Origin: a virus
DNA length: 28,531 nt
Virus record (IMG/VR): IMGVR_UViG_3300020578_000336
Coordinates: 1 to 28,531 of that record
Reading direction: 5' to 3' (one strand)
Shown here: piece after piece, positions 5,123 to 20,884 of the stretch
Layout: each line of letters opens with the position of its first letter
Position numbering within the stretch: position 1 is the stretch's first letter
Notes under the pieces: generated by a model
Database searches by the model: none
What the model saw: only the letters and a program-made list of their open reading frames with translations
What the model was told of the DNA's origin: nothing
Position numbers and translations under genes: made by a program

Positions 5123-5400
5123 TAGGCGTTGGCGCAGGTTGGCGCAGTGACGTGAGCATTGACGACATAGGCCATTTTCAGGTTTTTAGCCGGTGACGGC
5201 CTATCGGTGATTGAAACAATCCACTGCCAGCCCTTGCCATCATCTTCAGCGAAAGTCGGCTGATCGGGAATGTAGTCTTTGACTTGCTTGATTGTGCTTG
5301 TGCCGCGACAAATGCGATCACAAATCTCTGATGGCGAAAGGCCAGACTTAAGCGAAGCTCGTTGATTGACTACAATGTAGTATTTGTTGGGGTCAATCAT
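5122..5400 (-). CDS. small hypothetical protein (92 aa)
   Basis: A 92-residue protein, MIDPNKYYIVVNQRASLKSG at the start. An 'LSPSEICDRICRGTSTIKQVKDY' helix pair could bind nucleic acid, followed by beta strands with 'GWQWIVSI'. No known family recognised. Start and stop are both linked to neighbours (ATGA with the gene upstream, TAATG with the gene downstream), so it belongs to the dNMP-kinase-like/RuvC/membrane-protein chain. Confidence 0.7.
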   Translation of the reverse strand: MIDPNKYYIVVNQRASLKSGLSPSEICDRICRGTSTIKQVKDYIPDQPTFAEDDGKGWQWIVSITDRPSPAKNLKMAYVVNAHVTAPTCANA

Positions 5401-5588
5401 CTGCGGTTGCGATCAATGGGAAACATGGGCAGTTGCGGGCCAGGGCCGCGATAAGGCAGCGTGCGCGGCATGTAGCGGTTGCGGATGTTGTTGCGTGCGC
5501 GTTGGATGCTGCGTTCGTGGCCACGACCAAGCGTGTAGCCTGCAATCATTGACGATGCAATGACAAAGGCAGTCAGTAGTGCGATCAC
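5397..5588 (-). CDS. small membrane protein, GTG start (63 aa)
   Basis: The frame is open far upstream, but the gene most likely starts at the GTG at 5588, which overlaps the TGA of the preceding gene (GTGA). The 63-residue product has one N-terminal membrane segment (about residues 1-20, VIALLTAFVIASSMIAGYTL) and then a very basic, Pro-rich tail (RARNNIRNRYMPRTLPYRGP). It overlaps a second small membrane-protein gene, so the pair could act together, for example as a holin/antiholin or spanin-like set. No endolysin is adjacent, and that idea is weak. Confidence 0.6.
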   Translation of the reverse strand: MIALLTAFVIASSMIAGYTLGRGHERSIQRARNNIRNRYMPRTLPYRGPGPQLPMFPIDRNRR

Positions 5589-5818
5589 TTGATGCTCCGC
5601 AGGATGGTTTTCTGTTGCTGCTGCAGTTCGTGCTCGCGGCGCACAGTCCACTCGGCAATGTTGGCGCCGAGGATCAACAGGGCAAGCACGGCAACGGCCT
5701 TGACGATGGCGCTGCTGAAAGCCTGCATCCAGATCGGTGTCGGCAGTTGCCGCTGCTCCGGCTCGATGCCGCACAGTTCAAGCTGGCGGCGCTGCTTGTC
5801 GGTAAGAAGGTTGCTCAT
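5585..5818 (-). CDS. small membrane protein with coiled coil (77 aa)
   Basis: A 77-residue protein: a polar N-terminus (MSNLLTDKQRRQLELCGIEP), one hydrophobic segment at about residues 37-54 (AIVKAVAVLALLILGA), then a Gln/Glu/Arg helix (RREHELQQQQKTIL). It is predicted to be a single-pass membrane protein. It overlaps RuvC upstream (ATGA) and the 63-residue membrane protein downstream (GTGA). No signal for a specific function was seen. Confidence 0.7.
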   Translation of the reverse strand: MSNLLTDKQRRQLELCGIEPEQRQLPTPIWMQAFSSAIVKAVAVLALLILGANIAEWTVRREHELQQQQKTILRSIK

Positions 5819-6965: not shown

Positions 6966-9566
6966 ATGGTTTCCAGTACCCCACAAGTCCACATGATGCA
7001 GTTTGACCTGTCGCAGGCACTGATGTACCTGCAGGCACTGGGCAAATCGCCCAACACTGTGCGTCTACGCGCATTTCCGCATACAAAGACACCAGTTGAG
7101 CGCAAGCAGCAGATGCGAGCGCGAAAGCTGACGTTCAACCCAACGGAGATTGAAGAGGCGCAAGCACTCGGTTACGGCGTCTATGCGGTAGTCAACGAAG
7201 GCGGCGATACCAAAGCGACGATTCAAGCGTGCGTCGCCTACTTTGCAGAGTTTGACGGCATCAGCCATAGCCAGCAGTGGGAGCGGGTCAAGGAACAGAG
7301 ACTGCCTGAGCCGAGCTTTGTGGTGGACACTGGCGGCGGCAGCCTCCACTTCTACTGGGTGCTGAAACGCCCTGAGCCGAATCTGGCGCGGTGGCAAGAC
7401 GATCAGCGCCGGCTGGCCGCGCACCTGGGCAGTGACCGCTCGATCAACGATCCGAGTCGTGTGATGCGGCTGCCGGGTGCGATGTACATGGATGCGCAGC
7501 AGCGGCCTGTGGCGCAGAGCCGCATTGTTCACATGAGCGACAAGAAGTACGTCAGAGAGGCTGTACTACAGAACATCCCAGAGCTGCCGCAGGAGCGAAA
7601 ACCGAAGCCTCCGGCCCCGCGAGGGGGTGTCCAGAGCGACCCCATGGAGGAAGCGCTGGCCGTGCTCCGGCAGATCCCGGCACGGGTGCCTGGCGGCGGC
7701 ACCAGGGACGTGTACCTGAAGCTGCTATGGGCGCTGGCCTCGATCTGTGGGCCGCAGGAGGCTGGCCGGGTCATGGCGGCTCACAGCCCCGAGTGGGCGG
7801 CGCAGGAGGATCTGGAGCGCAAGGCCGCCGAGGCGACGGGCTCGGTTGGAGCAGGTAGCCTGTTCATGCTGGCCCGCCGCGAATGGGGCATCCGCCGCAA
7901 AAGCAGCCGTGCCCCTCAGCCGCCGATGAGACAAGCCACCAGCAGCGCACCGCCGTCACCAGCGGAGCAGTTCAACCAGTACGCAAACACCACGGCGCTG
8001 TCGCCCGATGGTGCGCGGAATGAACTGCGGCAACTGATCGCAGACGGCTGCTCTGGTTCAGCATTGGAGGCTGAGTGTGTTCGCGTTGCGACGGAGTACG
8101 AGCTTTCTGTTGGTGACGCACGGCAATTTGCGCGGCAGCTTGAGAATGAAATACATGCCGAGACGCAGGCCAACGCAGACATCGTTCAGATTCGCACGCA
8201 TGAAGCGCAGCGTGCATTTCGCAAAGATGTTCTGACGCTTGAGTATCTACTGCCGTCGTATCTTGTCGAGCCGATTCGCTATGTGAATGAGTCGCTGCAG
8301 TCTGATGATCTGTCGGCAGCGATGACATTCATGGGTGCTGTCAGTGGCGTCATCCGCACTGGCACGATGATTCGTGGTGACCTGCGATCATTCGTGGTGC
8401 CGCCCAACATGTATCTGGCGCTGATCGGTAAGTCTGGCCTGGGCAAGTCGCCGCTGATGCGGCAGCTCTGCGATCGAGTGTTGGACAAGGTGCGGCTGGA
8501 ATACGCGGCCAAGAACAGAGCGAAGCAGGCCGACTGGTACACGGCAAACAACTTACTGCCGAAGAATCAGCAGCAGCCGAAGCCACGTCGCTTCATGATG
8601 ACCATTGACAACTATACCGAGGAGTCACTGATTGAACTTCTGGGGCTGCACGAAAGCGCACAGCTTGGACTGCTGCTGAAAGCAGATGAGCTGGCCCAGG
8701 TGTTCCGTTCGCTAAACGCCTACAAAGGCGGCGGCAAGGGCTCTGAAGAGCAGCAACTGCTGTCGCTGTTTGATGGAGCTGGCGGCAGCAGCATCCGCGT
8801 GACAACGGACGTACGCGAGTTTGAGTTTGCCCAGTTCTCGATCATCGGCGGGATGCAGCCACGGGTGTTTGACATGCTGGCCAGCAACGGTGATCCAAGC
8901 GGTTTGTTCGCCCGGATTCTGCTGTGTCCGCTGCCCAATGAGATTCGTACACGCGACCCGATTGAGAGCATTGAAGCGATCGAGCAGTTTCACATCTGCG
9001 AGCGCAAGATTCAGGAAGTTGCGCTGGAAGTCTACAATCTGGAGCCATTCCAGTACGTGCTGGAGCCAGCGGCGATGAAGCGATTGGCACTGTATCAGCA
9101 TCAGGCGAAGCTAGCCGCTGATCAGTCCGAACTGGATGAGCAGAGCAGTGTTTACGGCAAGCGAGCTGGCTACATTCTTCGCATTGCCGGGCTGATGCAC
9201 ATTCTCGGTATCGCGTGCGGCGACATTCCGCCACGCTCGATGATCGCTGATGGCCTAGTTGAGAAGGCGTACTATGTGATCGAGCACTTGCAAGCCTATG
9301 CGCTTAACGCACACCGCAGGATCCATCTGAACGTTGATTCTGCTGGCCGTGAAATGACGGCCAAGATTCAACGCATGGGCTTTATCGAGCCTCTGTCGGC
9401 AGCGCAGTTCCGCAAGAATCATCTGAACAAAAAATACCACAAGGAGTATCCCACCGACAGCATCCAAGTGTTTATGCAGAAACTGGTAGATGCGAAGTAC
9501 GGTGAGTGGGTGCCGGGTCCGCGCAAGTCGCTGCTGTATAAAGCGATCAAGCCGATTGATCGGTGA
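6966..9566 (+). CDS. phage primase-helicase (AEP-like primase plus DUF3987-like helicase)
   Basis: An 866-residue two-domain replication protein. N-terminal part: 'FAEFDG' (residues 93-98), 'TGGGSLHFYW' (122-131) and 'DPSRVMRLPG' (162-171) are hallmarks of archaeo-eukaryotic-type/RepB-like primases; the acidic residues and the His should bind metal and nucleotide. C-terminal part: Walker A 'GKSGLGKS' (488-495) and Walker B 'LLLKADE' ending at D574-E575 fit the DUF3987-type replicative helicase. Together they would prime and unwind phage DNA. The true start may be one of the ATGs at 6993 or 6996, because a TATGGT -10-like sequence overlaps the first ATG and no Shine-Dalgarno sequence marks either. 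The gene is divergent from the minus-strand block. Confidence 0.85.
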   Translation: MVSSTPQVHMMQFDLSQALMYLQALGKSPNTVRLRAFPHTKTPVERKQQMRARKLTFNPTEIEEAQALGYGVYAVVNEGGDTKATIQACVAYFAEFDGISHSQQWERVKEQRLPEPSFVVDTGGGSLHFYWVLKRPEPNLARWQDDQRRLAAHLGSDRSINDPSRVMRLPGAMYMDAQQRPVAQSRIVHMSDKKYVREAVLQNIPELPQERKPKPPAPRGGVQSDPMEEALAVLRQIPARVPGGGTRDVYLKLLWALASICGPQEAGRVMAAHSPEWAAQEDLERKAAEATGSVGAGSLFMLARREWGIRRKSSRAPQPPMRQATSSAPPSPAEQFNQYANTTALSPDGARNELRQLIADGCSGSALEAECVRVATEYELSVGDARQFARQLENEIHAETQANADIVQIRTHEAQRAFRKDVLTLEYLLPSYLVEPIRYVNESLQSDDLSAAMTFMGAVSGVIRTGTMIRGDLRSFVVPPNMYLALIGKSGLGKSPLMRQLCDRVLDKVRLEYAAKNRAKQADWYTANNLLPKNQQQPKPRRFMMTIDNYTEESLIELLGLHESAQLGLLLKADELAQVFRSLNAYKGGGKGSEEQQLLSLFDGAGGSSIRVTTDVREFEFAQFSIIGGMQPRVFDMLASNGDPSGLFARILLCPLPNEIRTRDPIESIEAIEQFHICERKIQEVALEVYNLEPFQYVLEPAAMKRLALYQHQAKLAADQSELDEQSSVYGKRAGYILRIAGLMHILGIACGDIPPRSMIADGLVEKAYYVIEHLQAYALNAHRRIHLNVDSAGREMTAKIQRMGFIEPLSAAQFRKNHLNKKYHKEYPTDSIQVFMQKLVDAKYGEWVPGPRKSLLYKAIKPIDR

Positions 9567-9869
9567 TCATTCGTTCACCGCAACCAGGTAACGCTCCAGT
9601 AGAATCATCGCGCTGTTAATCTTGGTGATCGCATCGAGACCTTCCTGACGGCCGTTCACGTCGTCCAGCATTTTCTCGCGGACCCGTTCCGCCAGGATCG
9701 CCAGCAGCGCGTGCTCAGCACGCATCCCAGTGTCGTCCTCCTCCTTGAAGCGAACGGTCAGGTCTTGATCGCCGCCGCCGATCACGCGGTAGTGGCGGGC
9801 CGGCACGACGAGCCCTTCGTACTTGTCGATCGTGGCGCCGTTGGGGCCGGTGTAGTCGAGCTGGGCCAT
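9567..9869 (-). CDS. hypothetical protein with C-terminal helical hairpin (100 aa)
   Basis: I prefer the ATG at 9869 (MAQLDYTGPNGATIDKYEGL). The longer start at 9905 sits directly on the T-run of a terminator. Residues 1-45 look like a small beta domain; residues 50-100 form two helices, 'GMRAEHALLAILAERVREKM' and then 'GRQEGLDAITKINSAMILLE'. That hairpin faintly recalls the Acb2/Tad1-type hairpin of anti-CBASS proteins (Arg-Glu, 'TKxxxA'), but the match is weak. The stop codon is back-to-back with the primase-helicase stop (TGATCA). The DNA before the ATG resembles that before 19579. Confidence 0.6.
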   Translation of the reverse strand: MAQLDYTGPNGATIDKYEGLVVPARHYRVIGGGDQDLTVRFKEEDDTGMRAEHALLAILAERVREKMLDDVNGRQEGLDAITKINSAMILLERYLVAVNE

Positions 9870-10470: not shown

Positions 10471-10797
10471 CTAGCGATCCGCGCCTGTTCGGTGAGCAGG
10501 GCACGGATGGCGTTGCGATCCTCCATTGGCACCCTCCAGCTCGGCGGCGATGGCGAGGAGTTGATAGCGAGCGTCTTCGTTGCGGACGCTCTTGCCATCG
10601 ACAAATGCTCCCGCTTCCGGGAATGACCCTTCACGGGGAGGGTCGTAATGCTCCGGCACCACCTGATCCGCTACAGCACGCAGGGCGGCGGCGAGGCACA
10701 CTCGCTTGTTTGGGTGGTTGTGCCCGCCAGGCCAGTGGTCAAACGTGGCATCCAGCACCGCCTGTGCGGCGGTGCTCAGGGGGGTGGGGTCAGTCAT
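10471..10797 (-). CDS. small hypothetical protein of mosaic family (108 aa)
   Basis: The 108-residue protein begins with the module MTDPxPLSxAAQAVLDA, then 'VCLAAALRAVADQVVPEHYD' and 'RYQLLAIAAELEG', a layout I associate with small cyanophage proteins. The ATG at 10797 overlaps the upstream stop by 8 bases (ATGACTGA), so earlier in-frame ATGs are read-through. The first 53 bases of the gene are nearly identical to an internal segment of the upstream gene. Helical, function unknown. Confidence 0.65.
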   Translation of the reverse strand: MTDPTPLSTAAQAVLDATFDHWPGGHNHPNKRVCLAAALRAVADQVVPEHYDPPREGSFPEAGAFVDGKSVRNEDARYQLLAIAAELEGANGGSQRHPCPAHRTGADR

Positions 10798-10799
10798 CG
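10747..10799. repeat. 53-bp direct repeat, copy A
   Basis: Encodes the MTDPxPLSxAAQAVLDA start module of the 108-residue gene. It matches copy B (11237-11289) at 49 of 53 positions by my count. The shared end, GGGGTCAGTCATCG on the plus strand, is also present at about 11482-11495. Confidence 0.75.
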
Positions 10800-11494
10800 G
10801 TCGGCTCCGTGGTGGTGGTGGGCAGCGGCAGGGCGTGGGCGGGGAGCCAGTGGGTCGCATCTTCTGCGTATTCCAAGGGCTCAAAAGACCACCATCCGGT
10901 TGATCCATCGCATGATGGAGGGTTCCAGCACCAGCAAGATCCCACGGTCGCGCCAACATTAAAAGCGCAATCCTCCGGCCCCGGCAGCCGCTCGCTAATC
11001 GGCACTGGCTGGAGCGGCGCGAGTGGGCTCGCTTGAGCAACCTCCAGCGATGCCTGAATGTATCTAGCAAAAATTGACTTGCGACCGGCGATGCCAACTT
11101 TTACTCTTTCAAGAAACAGCTCTCGCGGCATGTTGTTAGCATAATCAGCCCCGCCTGAGATCGCTGAGCAGATGATGCGCTCTTGCTCGGGCTCGCCAGC
11201 AGCGCCCGTTTCGCTGACGATCATAGGTAGAAGGCCGGCATCCAGCACTGCCTGTGCGGCGGGGCTCAGTGGGTTGGGGTCAGTCATCGAGCTGCTCGGA
11301 TAGATGGGGAATCGTGTGGACGCTGCGGAGCCTGCTGACAGGTGTTGCTGCACCCGCTTGCGCAGCGCAACGCTCTCTCGATACCAGTAGTAGTCCTCGG
11401 GGTCATCGAACTGGTGGTCGGCCTCCAGTTGGCCCTGCATGTAGGCCATGTGGCTGGCCAACTTGATCAGCAGGTCGAGGGTGGGGTCAGTCAT
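10790..11494 (-). CDS. mosaic hypothetical protein with DUF551-like C-terminus (234 aa)
   Basis: The 234-residue ORF has three parts. Residues 1-52 are a helical segment (MTDPTLDLLIKLASHMAYMQ). Residues 70-86 repeat the MTDPxPLSxAAQAVLDA module. The last 70 residues have 'PVPISERLPGP ... WWSFEP ... THWLPAHALPLP', the pattern of the phage DUF551 family. The second module's in-frame ATG at 11287 has the same surroundings as real gene starts, so two genes may have fused, or an internal start may give a shorter product. Its start and stop overlap the neighbours by 8 bases each. Function unknown. Confidence 0.6.
   Translation of the reverse strand: MTDPTLDLLIKLASHMAYMQGQLEADHQFDDPEDYYWYRESVALRKRVQQHLSAGSAASTRFPIYPSSSMTDPNPLSPAAQAVLDAGLLPMIVSETGAAGEPEQERIICSAISGGADYANNMPRELFLERVKVGIAGRKSIFARYIQASLEVAQASPLAPLQPVPISERLPGPEDCAFNVGATVGSCWCWNPPSCDGSTGWWSFEPLEYAEDATHWLPAHALPLPTTTTEPTDD
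11237..11289. repeat. 53-bp direct repeat, copy B
   Basis: Second copy of the repeat at 10747-10799. Here the encoded module is internal to a longer frame and its ATG is at 11287. The four differences fall mainly at codon positions that keep or mildly change residues. Confidence 0.75.
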
Positions 11495-11831
11495 CGAGTT
11501 GCTCCAGTGCGCGGCGGATAATATCGTATTTGGCCATCACATCTGCATTGAGATGGACACCATTAACTACAACGGGGTCAATTTGCATAGATGACAGCGT
11601 CGCAAGCGCCTGCTCCTTCAAGTTCAGCGGCTTGGGGCGGCGGGCAGCGCGGAGCGAATCACCGCACTCGGCGTAGCCTTGAACCCACTCACAGCACGCT
11701 TCCAGCTCCTGTTCGGCGCCCCATTGGGCGGCTTGGGTGGCGACCTTTTCCATGTCATGGTCAACAAACAAGGCATCGCGCCACTGCTTCACCAGCTCAA
11801 GCGGTGGCGTGATCGGTTCGTTGTTGCTCAT
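11487..11831 (-). CDS. conserved cyanophage-type hypothetical protein (114 aa)
   Basis: I choose the ATG at 11831 (MSNNEPITPPLELVKQWRDA) over an in-frame GTG at 11924; a GGAG lies 12 bases upstream and the residues before it look untranslated. The protein has 'LVKQWRDAL', then 'AAQWGAEQELEACCEWVQGY', 'RAARRPKPLNLKEQALATL' and ends 'IIRRALEQLDD'. I recognise this as a small-protein type common in phages of Synechococcus-like cyanobacteria; no function is known to me. It heads a chain of three 8-base overlapping genes. Confidence 0.75.
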   Translation of the reverse strand: MSNNEPITPPLELVKQWRDALFVDHDMEKVATQAAQWGAEQELEACCEWVQGYAECGDSLRAARRPKPLNLKEQALATLSSMQIDPVVVNGVHLNADVMAKYDIIRRALEQLDD

Positions 11832-11940
11832 TGGGTTAGTTGCTCCGACTTGTGTTGTTATTGGTGGGCGGTGCTGATGATTCAAGCTATAGATCGCGGG
11901 GTGATGGCTGCGGCAGCCGATCACTCGGAATTGCAGTCGA

Positions 11941-12579
11941 TCATTTCCCTACCCTCCTCCTTATCCTTTGCGCCCACCCAAGCGCCACCCCCAGCCCGAG
12001 CACCCCAGCAGGGCCGGGCACGGCAGGTTCGTTCGGCGGATCGTGATGCGGCGGCCTCCCACCACCACCATGACCGCCACCATGGCCACCGCCGCCGCCG
12101 CTCCAGCCGCCACCGCGCCCAGGCCCGTAGATCCCCGGCGGATTCCAGCCTGCAGGCGCACCACGCCACGAGGCGAGCAGGGCAGGGCCGGCGATGCGAC
12201 CGCGACCCGTCACCGGGGGATCGAACAGGCTGCCGCTGGAGTGGCCGCCATGGATGCGCGGCAGCTTGGCGGGACGGTAGCCCAGCGGATCGAGCGGATC
12301 GGCCTGCACGGGGCGGCTGCCGGCGACTCCGACGCCTTCCGGCAACACATCGGCCCACCCAGCGCCAGCGCAGATCAGCAGCAGTGGCGCGGCCTTCATG
12401 GCGGCAACCGCAAGAAAATGCGCTTTTGTTTTGGCGGCGTGTTTGCGCTGCCGCTCAGCATTGTAAGCGCGGCCTTCTTCGGTGAACTTAGGCCAACAGG
12501 ACGAACAGTAGTCGCGTGTCGGGTGATAGACGCGCCTGCTGCAATCAGGGTTGGCGCAGGCTTTGATGGGCTTTGGCAT
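11941..12579 (-). CDS. zinc-finger/glycine-rich protein with PEP-CTERM-like tail
   Basis: The 212-residue ORF reads as two parts. Residues 1-55 carry C8, C13, C25 and C28 (CANPDC ... CSSC), a treble-clef-like zinc site as in small phage proteins. From residue 54 comes a hydrophobic stretch (FLAVAAMKAAPLLLICAGAG) that would serve as a membrane anchor or signal peptide, then a Gly/His-rich region (about 150-180), and a C-terminus 'VPGPAGVLGLGVALGWAQRI' followed by RRRVGK. That end resembles the cyanobacterial PEP-CTERM sorting signal. A second protein could start at the ATG at 12399. A fused pair or an acquired host surface-protein fragment are both possible. Confidence 0.55.
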   Translation of the reverse strand: MPKPIKACANPDCSRRVYHPTRDYCSSCWPKFTEEGRAYNAERQRKHAAKTKAHFLAVAAMKAAPLLLICAGAGWADVLPEGVGVAGSRPVQADPLDPLGYRPAKLPRIHGGHSSGSLFDPPVTGRGRIAGPALLASWRGAPAGWNPPGIYGPGRGGGWSGGGGGHGGGHGGGGRPPHHDPPNEPAVPGPAGVLGLGVALGWAQRIRRRVGK

Positions 12580-12612: not shown

Positions 12613-13083
12613 TCAGGCACGGCTCAGCCTCAGAGACGCACGGCGCAGCGCTTCAATGCGAACATACAGATCGCTCATCTGCTGCATTGTTTCGGCAGCG
12701 TTGATCAGGTAGGGCCAGCGGTCGTCTTTCATCACTTCAGGTAGCGACTTGTACATGCGCCTGGCCATCTGCTTCAGCGTTTCGTCGCCATTGGCCTCAA
12801 CCTGCCAGTCCTCAGTCAGAACAAACCGCCTTGAGCGGGAATCGTCATCGTAGCGGTGGCCAAGCTCGTCAAGGCAGCGCAGTTCAACGCGACCAAGGCC
12901 CGACTGCAGAAAGATGTATTTACCGAAAGCGGACAGCGGCTCGGACACCTTGAGCCATTCGCGCTCGATTTCCCTCCAGAAGGCGTCGCGGTCAATGACG
13001 AACTGGCAGTGATCTTTACCAGTGTTGATGCCGTCTGCCTTGGCTTCGTCAAGCAGATACAGCATGGACGTGAACATGGACAT
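12613..13083 (-). CDS. hypothetical protein (156 aa)
   Basis: A 156-residue charged protein, MSMFTSMLYLLDEAKADGIN at the start. Its middle has 'VIDRDAFWREIEREWLKVSE' and the C-terminal third is helical (MQQMSDLYVRIEALRRASLR). No family recognised. It starts about 20 bases downstream of one of the best promoters in the window (TTGACC-N17-TAAGAT) and is divergent from the Erf operon. The gap before the next gene holds another promoter element, so it may be a single-gene transcript. Confidence 0.75.
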   Translation of the reverse strand: MSMFTSMLYLLDEAKADGINTGKDHCQFVIDRDAFWREIEREWLKVSEPLSAFGKYIFLQSGLGRVELRCLDELGHRYDDDSRSRRFVLTEDWQVEANGDETLKQMARRMYKSLPEVMKDDRWPYLINAAETMQQMSDLYVRIEALRRASLRLSRA

Positions 13084-20011: not shown

Positions 20012-20884
20012 TCACAATGAGGGGTCTGGTGGCGATGGTACGCCTGCCCATGAAGCGGCAACATTTACGCCGTCAAAGCTAAACTCAAAAGTTACCGGAT
20101 CTGTGGGAATGAATGGTGCGCCAGTATTAGTGGCGCCAAACCAAGAGCGAAAAGTGCCACCGCCTTCTGCCCCAATACTTCCAAGAAAGCCACCAACCGA
20201 CGTGAATGGTGGCATTGGGTAGATTGGCCCTCCTCCCCACCAAGCAAGCGAGGTTGGGCTTACCGTAAACGGGCCTGTAAATACAGGCGGATTGCCGGTG
20301 GAAATCCAAGCAGAAGGCAGCCCGCCTCCTTCGCCAACAACTCTGTAAAAGGGATAAAGCAAAGGGTTGAATCCGCCCCAGTCGATACCTTCGGCGCAAG
20401 TCCCACTCCCAACCCATGCACCATCTGCGCCAAAGCCGGGTGATGGAGTTGCAACAACAGGCGCACCGTGATTACGGTATTGCTCAGCGAGTTGCCCGAT
20501 GAACGTGATGGGCTCCAGTCGTGTATAGCCCGGTGCAACCTGCTCGTACTTCAGCTCGCCGGGCGCAAAATGCCATTCAAGTGTTGGCGGAATCTTGGCT
20601 AGCAGTTCCGCTTTGATGCCAAAGAAGAACTTGGCTGGCAATTCAAGCGGTTTGTAATCCCCTTGCGCTGCATCGCAGGCGGCCCACACTTCTGCCATCT
20701 GCTCATCGGTGATAACACCAAATGCGATTCGCAGGCTGGCGTCAACGCTCAACGCGCCAAAGCCACGGACAGAAGCACTGCCGCCGTTCTTCGGCTCATA
20801 GCGGCGATTGGGAAAGCGACCGAGCTTCAGTTCACGGCCGCCCTCTTCGGCAATGGGCTCCAGTGGCGGGAAGGGAATGGCCAT
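20012..20884 (-). CDS. tail protein with Gly/Pro-rich C-terminal extension (290 aa)
   Basis: The ATG at 20884 (MAIPFPPLEPIAEEGGRELK) is chosen because the upstream stop is one base away; the longer frame to 21031 lies over the previous gene. Residues 1-145 form the domain shared with the 134-residue protein, including 'RIAFGVITDEQMAEVWAACD'. After 'TRLEPITFIGQL' the protein turns into a 145-residue Gly/Pro/Trp-rich part ('GGGLPSAWISTGNPP', 'SVGGFLGSIGAEGGG', 'FEFSFDGVNVAASWAG'), encoded by DNA that is more AT-rich than the first half. Likely a tail-tip or fibre protein with an acquired adhesive end. Confidence 0.65.
   Translation of the reverse strand: MAIPFPPLEPIAEEGGRELKLGRFPNRRYEPKNGGSASVRGFGALSVDASLRIAFGVITDEQMAEVWAACDAAQGDYKPLELPAKFFFGIKAELLAKIPPTLEWHFAPGELKYEQVAPGYTRLEPITFIGQLAEQYRNHGAPVVATPSPGFGADGAWVGSGTCAEGIDWGGFNPLLYPFYRVVGEGGGLPSAWISTGNPPVFTGPFTVSPTSLAWWGGGPIYPMPPFTSVGGFLGSIGAEGGGTFRSWFGATNTGAPFIPTDPVTFEFSFDGVNVAASWAGVPSPPDPSL

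Follow-up and report, generated by a model that had tools for sequence, protein, structure and literature searches.

A putatively exported protein of a probable cyanophage with a PEP-CTERM-like VPGP tail

Exosortase-dependent sorting has been investigated as a system of the host, in connection with surface proteins, exopolysaccharide and flocs. In the PEP-CTERM/exosortase (EpsH) system, represented by the models TIGR02595 and PF07589, a C-terminal motif with two prolines is combined with a short hydrophobic helix and a terminal arginine cluster, and a signal-like segment is located upstream (Haft et al., 2006; PMC1569441). Cyanobacteria generally have exosortases and PEP-CTERM exoproteins (PMC12188702; PMC10957091), among them ZepA (All3515), a zinc-handling exoprotein of Anabaena with a signal peptide, a PEP-CTERM tail and a His-containing mature region (PMC10957091). 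A hydrophobic helix with an arginine cluster is also found in MYXO-CTERM tails (TIGR03901), which belong to the myxosortase system and whose signature motif contains an invariant cysteine (PMC11980579). The protein analysed here shares the listed elements of PEP-CTERM proteins, but it is encoded by a phage, has a four-cysteine N-terminus and carries VPGP instead of VPEP. Its likeness to ZepA, a host protein that is conserved and folded, is one in kind only.

The window, i.e., the whole stretch of viral DNA analysed (an IMG/VR virus record of 28,531 nucleotides), encodes proteins that resemble Synechococcus phage proteins. Its primase resembles that of cyanophage S-2L, and distant matches of the primase/DUF3987 protein at 6966-9566 include cyanobacterial plasmid proteins as well as S-2L. 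These likenesses indicate that the host is most likely a cyanobacterium and probably picocyanobacterial. No exosortase was detected in the window with TIGR02602; the cyanosortase-B-associated model matched nowhere at all and is hence uninformative.

The gene of interest is an ORF of 212 codons at positions 11941-12579 of the minus strand, on which all of its features described below are located. The sequence-only reading had named this ORF with its strand and coordinates, four cysteines, a hydrophobic stretch, a Gly/His-rich region and the C-terminus VPGPAGVLGLGVALGWAQRIRRRVGK, all of which were confirmed. The ORF sits tightly in a leftward gene cluster, 33 nt past the stop codon of 12613-13083, and the listed start of 11487-11924 lies 16 nt beyond it. 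Codon usage favours the ORF frame across approximately residues 33-140, and synonymous codon usage is ordinary over residues 1-60. Two further contigs carry the ORF with 0 differences; they represent essentially the same phage and therefore add no evolutionary test, and a search for diverged homologues of the protein found none. An internal ATG at 12397-12399 (M61), which would yield a protein starting with MKAAPLLLICAGAGWA, had been proposed as the start of a separate exported protein. This ATG is in frame, but it is not preceded by a Shine-Dalgarno-like stretch, as is likewise the case for most genes of this phage. If only the start at 12399 were used, ~213 nt with still ordinary synonymous usage would remain uncovered. 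The long form is hence the simpler explanation, and an additional internal start besides it is possible.

Several further observations concern the surroundings of the gene. Just downstream of the ORF, a stretch of 356 bases (11504-11859) is replaced by a differing segment of 234 bases (9472-9705) in the otherwise nearly identical contig L036, and the different small gene that results at this spot amounts to a local gene swap. Over 9.5 kb shared with L036, five of eight single-base differences fall within 138 bases (20059-20196) of a tail-region gene. Overlapping minus-strand ORFs at 10471-11494 contain a repeated segment (DPTPLSTAAQAVLDA and DPNPLSPAAQAVLDA), which suggests a local duplication.

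The CTERM-like tail comprises residues 187-212 (11944-12021). Residues 191-203 are hydrophobic or glycine and are followed at the extreme C-terminus by RIRRRVGK, which is the architecture of PEP-CTERM signals, with glycine taking the place of glutamate in the Pro-Glu-Pro motif. When searched alone, the last 30 residues align with positions 1-23 of the 24 positions of the NCBIfam PEP_CTERM model at 14.2 bits (cut-off 16). Scores below the cut-off were likewise obtained with MYXO-CTERM (16.2 bits, cut-off 20), whose invariant cysteine is absent from the tail, and with GC_trans_RRR (14.1 bits, cut-off 15.85). The full-length protein matched no CTERM model, and Pfam returned no match at all. The tail should therefore be termed PEP-CTERM-like rather than a formal member of the family. 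Nevertheless, none of nine shuffled tails retaining the RRR end matched PEP_CTERM, and one of them matched MYXO-CTERM at 12.0 bits. The proposed profile match thus held with regard to a likeness beyond that of shuffled sequences, but not with regard to a score over any curated cut-off. Among 1263 distinct six-frame ORFs from phage loci, a strict CTERM-like regular expression matched only the window ORF and one ORF of a second cyanophage, whose locus had itself been chosen by the VPGP pattern. Searches of plasmids and phages with the short tail by tblastn gave no matches, as is expected for queries of 26-30 residues. The resemblance of the tail to a C-terminal sorting signal thus exceeds chance, and the odds that it functions as one appear about even.

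The codons of the tail complicate this picture. Their synonymous score per codon is -0.34, whereas 25-codon windows from the other genes in the window average 0.132 (sd 0.149; z about -3.2). The score lies near the first percentile, with the full codon score below that of nearly all coding windows. A comparison of 69 canonical phage PEP-CTERM tails with their own contigs yielded a mean z of +0.33 and a minimum of -2.49, a range outside of which the present tail falls. Codon usage here fails to back the ORF frame, and another frame scores higher over the last 75 bases. All four arginines of the tail are encoded by AGG, a codon used for only 34 of 517 arginines elsewhere, and three of the four lie in AGGAGGAGG (11953-11961), which also constitutes a Shine-Dalgarno-like tract 8 bases ahead of an ATG at 11944. 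The arginine cluster may therefore partly be a by-product or a translation signal. The ATG opens a mini-ORF (MIDCNSE, 11921-11944) and overlaps the stop codon of the 212-codon ORF (ATGA), and the mini-ORF stop in turn overlaps the GTG at 11924 (GTGA). This arrangement, together with AGGAGGAGG, possibly reflects translational coupling of the ORF, the seven-codon mini-ORF and the next ORF (11921-11961). A programmed frameshift at the tail, where the tract is followed by AAA TGA, was considered and rejected, as no good slippery site was seen. The codon data would fit a coincidental tail, with a G-rich stretch and a Shine-Dalgarno-like tract for downstream translation happening to read as a Gly-rich helix and an arginine cluster and no sorting taking place. 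We regard this as unlikely. The AGG tract does not include the VPGP motif, its spacing or the pattern of small and hydrophobic residues, and the tail score rises to a near-normal -0.06 once the arginine cluster is left out. In addition, the value of the tract as an initiation signal is uncertain, given that the ATG past it opens only seven codons, and chance matches that end in a basic cluster are rare.

The rarity of such matches is apparent from a search of IMG/VR for the pattern VPGPx3hGx3AhG, which was found in 27 stretches. Apart from the contigs of the window phage itself, only one of these (L017) terminates with a basic cluster and a stop codon, and the wider cyanobacterial pattern VPxPLP...AFG retrieved L017 only. 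Another match to the VPGP pattern, L037, was discarded, since it is a short ORF without arginine cluster that overlaps a longer gene on the opposite strand. L017 corresponds to a protein of 218 residues on contig G001 (L040:13564-14220) that starts with MELLSLGRLALTTGAVAAASAATLLSPVSASA, which by eye is clearly a signal peptide, and has the C-terminus VPGPLPVLGGMAAFGFARRIRQRITAG. The two tails align without gaps, share the glycine spacing and an RIRxR end, and are identical in 14 of 24 residues, but in only 34 of 72 bases; the observed score of the tail core was reached by 112 of 200,000 shuffles. Taken together, these values place the likeness at the level of the protein. G001, from this second cyanophage, is a phage contig with genes for a terminase, a portal protein and a ribonucleotide reductase, and its VPGP gene is immediately followed by homologues of the window genes at 10790-11494 and 5397-5774. 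The G001 protein differs from the window protein in its typical tail codons (synonymous z = +1.7), its clear Sec signal peptide, an unrelated mature region and the absence of a four-cysteine module. Also encoded on this contig (L040:155-565 and L040:8868-10348) are an exported protein resembling RlpA and proteins in which LLRGGSW units recur.

Upstream of the tail, the window protein consists of three recognisable parts. The four cysteines (residues 8, 13, 25 and 28; C-x4-C-x11-C-x2-C; 12496-12558) may form a zinc-binding module, although no zinc-family profile matched significantly (NF045510, 13.1 bits, cut-off 24). The zinc module of HNH endonucleases at the N-terminus (phrog_144) matched residues 2-50 only, at E=0.07; the match is not significant and does not extend to an HNH catalytic region, and the N-terminus was therefore rejected as an HNH remnant. 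A hydrophobic stretch resembling a signal anchor or signal peptide follows at residues 53-75 (12355-12423), with the highest Kyte-Doolittle value of a 19-residue window at residues 55-73 (1.99). It is preceded by an N-terminus of 52 residues and would, by eye, be a classical Sec signal only with a start at M61; cleavage after GWA-75 is possible. Residues 145-185 (12025-12147) are rich in Pro, Gly and His and predicted to be disordered, with low pLDDT. A single-sequence AlphaFold model contains helices at residues 34-71 and 191-210 and is of low confidence in between; its mean pLDDT of just 54.6 makes these helices weak support. Fusion to the zinc module had been considered hard to reconcile with export. 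This objection loses its weight if a signal anchor is formed by residues 53-75, as a cytoplasmic module would be compatible with export of the remaining protein. The basic stretch RQRKHAAKTKAH ahead of residues 53-75 favours an orientation with the N-terminus inside, which would place the middle region outside and the C-terminal RRR inside.

The same features would suit an ordinary membrane protein of two helices whose ends both lie inside, in which the C-terminal helix and arginine cluster set the topology according to the positive-inside rule and no exosortase is involved; such a protein could act on the host membrane, e.g., in superinfection exclusion. Two hydrophobic segments, basic residues on what is presumably the cytoplasmic side, the two helices of the model and the sub-threshold profile scores all agree with this explanation. 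It is nonetheless rather unlikely in our judgement, because the C-terminal segment is short and rich in Gly, and a plain anchor would have no need of the VPGP start and spacing that are common to the window and G001 tails. A unimolecular spanin, which would join both membranes at lysis through a lipoprotein signal at its N-terminus and a membrane helix at its C-terminus, is highly improbable. A cysteine is indeed present in the signal-like segment of the short form (LLLICAGAG), in addition to a C-terminal helix and a Pro-rich middle. However, this cysteine is preceded by Ile (LLIC) rather than Gly, Ala or Ser and thus does not form the lipobox of a u-spanin, the C-terminal helix is short, and no spanin profile matched. 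Moreover, the gene lies near genes for an Erf-like protein and an exonuclease instead of recognised lysis genes.

Precedents for sorting tails on phage contigs were provided by a scan of IMG/VR for one narrow canonical pattern, VPEPx3ALLGxG, which was found in at least 120 stretches. Seventy-five of the 81 matches read are C-terminal with a basic cluster, a signal-peptide-like N-terminus was assigned by a simple rule in 63 of 80 loci, and families comprise up to 24 members. The tail exceeded the TIGR02595 cut-off in all 22 contigs tested, and Pfam PF07589 and the NCBIfam PEP-CTERM models confirmed the canonical phage tails. A large terminase was identified in 21 of these 22 contigs and an exosortase (TIGR02602) in none, with a model whose only match among 14 control genomes fell short of the cut-off. 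Two contigs were examined closer and contain terminase and portal genes, one of them also a major head protein gene. Although some DNA of the host may be included in IMG/VR contigs, terminase and tail share a contig and in several cases lie near each other (e.g., G016, G018 and G019). Many of the tailed-phage contigs with canonical tails (L042-L121) are ~40-42 kb in length, and several families are represented. The largest family (24 members, about 211 residues) shows weak likeness to the floc-associated PepA; its structure model is beta-rich (mean pLDDT 77), with no fold match at E≤0.001. No PHROGs family was assigned to the four canonical proteins scanned or to the G001 protein. These proteins have in common with the window protein that they are phage-encoded, combine a signal-like N-terminus with a CTERM tail and occur on contigs without exosortase, whereas their VPEP tails exceed the curated cut-off, the mature domain is beta-rich in the largest family, and no cyanobacterial link is shown. 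Phage-borne PEP-CTERM proteins were not described in any title or abstract retrieved from the open-access library searched. By sequence, phage contigs without exosortase thus frequently carry canonical PEP-CTERM proteins, and it is consequently plausible that phages use the exosortase of the host.

With about equal confidence and doubt, we consider an exported or surface-directed cyanophage protein, which may depend on an exosortase-type enzyme of the host, to be the best reading of the ORF. The proposal of a PEP-CTERM-like phage protein sorted by the host is partly supported, namely by the tail likeness, the similar tail of the signal-peptide-bearing G001 protein and the canonical phage precedents, and weakened by the lack of a profile score over cut-off and the atypical tail codons. 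In this model, the infected cell would produce the protein as a membrane hairpin. The four-cysteine module would remain cytoplasmic, and residues 53-75 would serve as a signal anchor or, given a start at M61, as a cleaved signal peptide, placing the Pro/Gly/His-rich middle on the outer side of the plasma membrane. The VPGP tail would insert as a short C-terminal helix with the arginine cluster inside, until an exosortase-type host enzyme cuts at VPGP and passes the Gly/His-rich part towards the cell surface, by which the phage would alter the envelope of the infected cell. Topology, cleavage, host enzyme, surface location and function are what we infer for the window protein, and a function at the surface could, for example, be the blocking of superinfection.

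More generally, we tentatively propose, at somewhat less than an even chance, that it is common for tailed phages to encode exosortase cargo of their own, in the form of signal-peptide proteins with CTERM tails which the exosortase of the host exports so that the surface of the infected cell is remodelled, that a cyanophage VPGP class exists beyond current profiles, and that the window protein with its zinc module is one of its members. The tail type described here points to a cyanobacterial VPGP class that is overlooked by current CTERM models. Phage-borne PEP-CTERM cargo as a general pattern is of greater interest than the window protein itself. The borrowing of a host export route by viruses may be common, as clear versions of the tag are present in many other phages. 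If phages routinely supply exosortase cargo, this would offer a testable route to altering the surface of infected cells, with relevance for superinfection, aggregation and lysis, and would give reason to re-examine unannotated phage ORFs.
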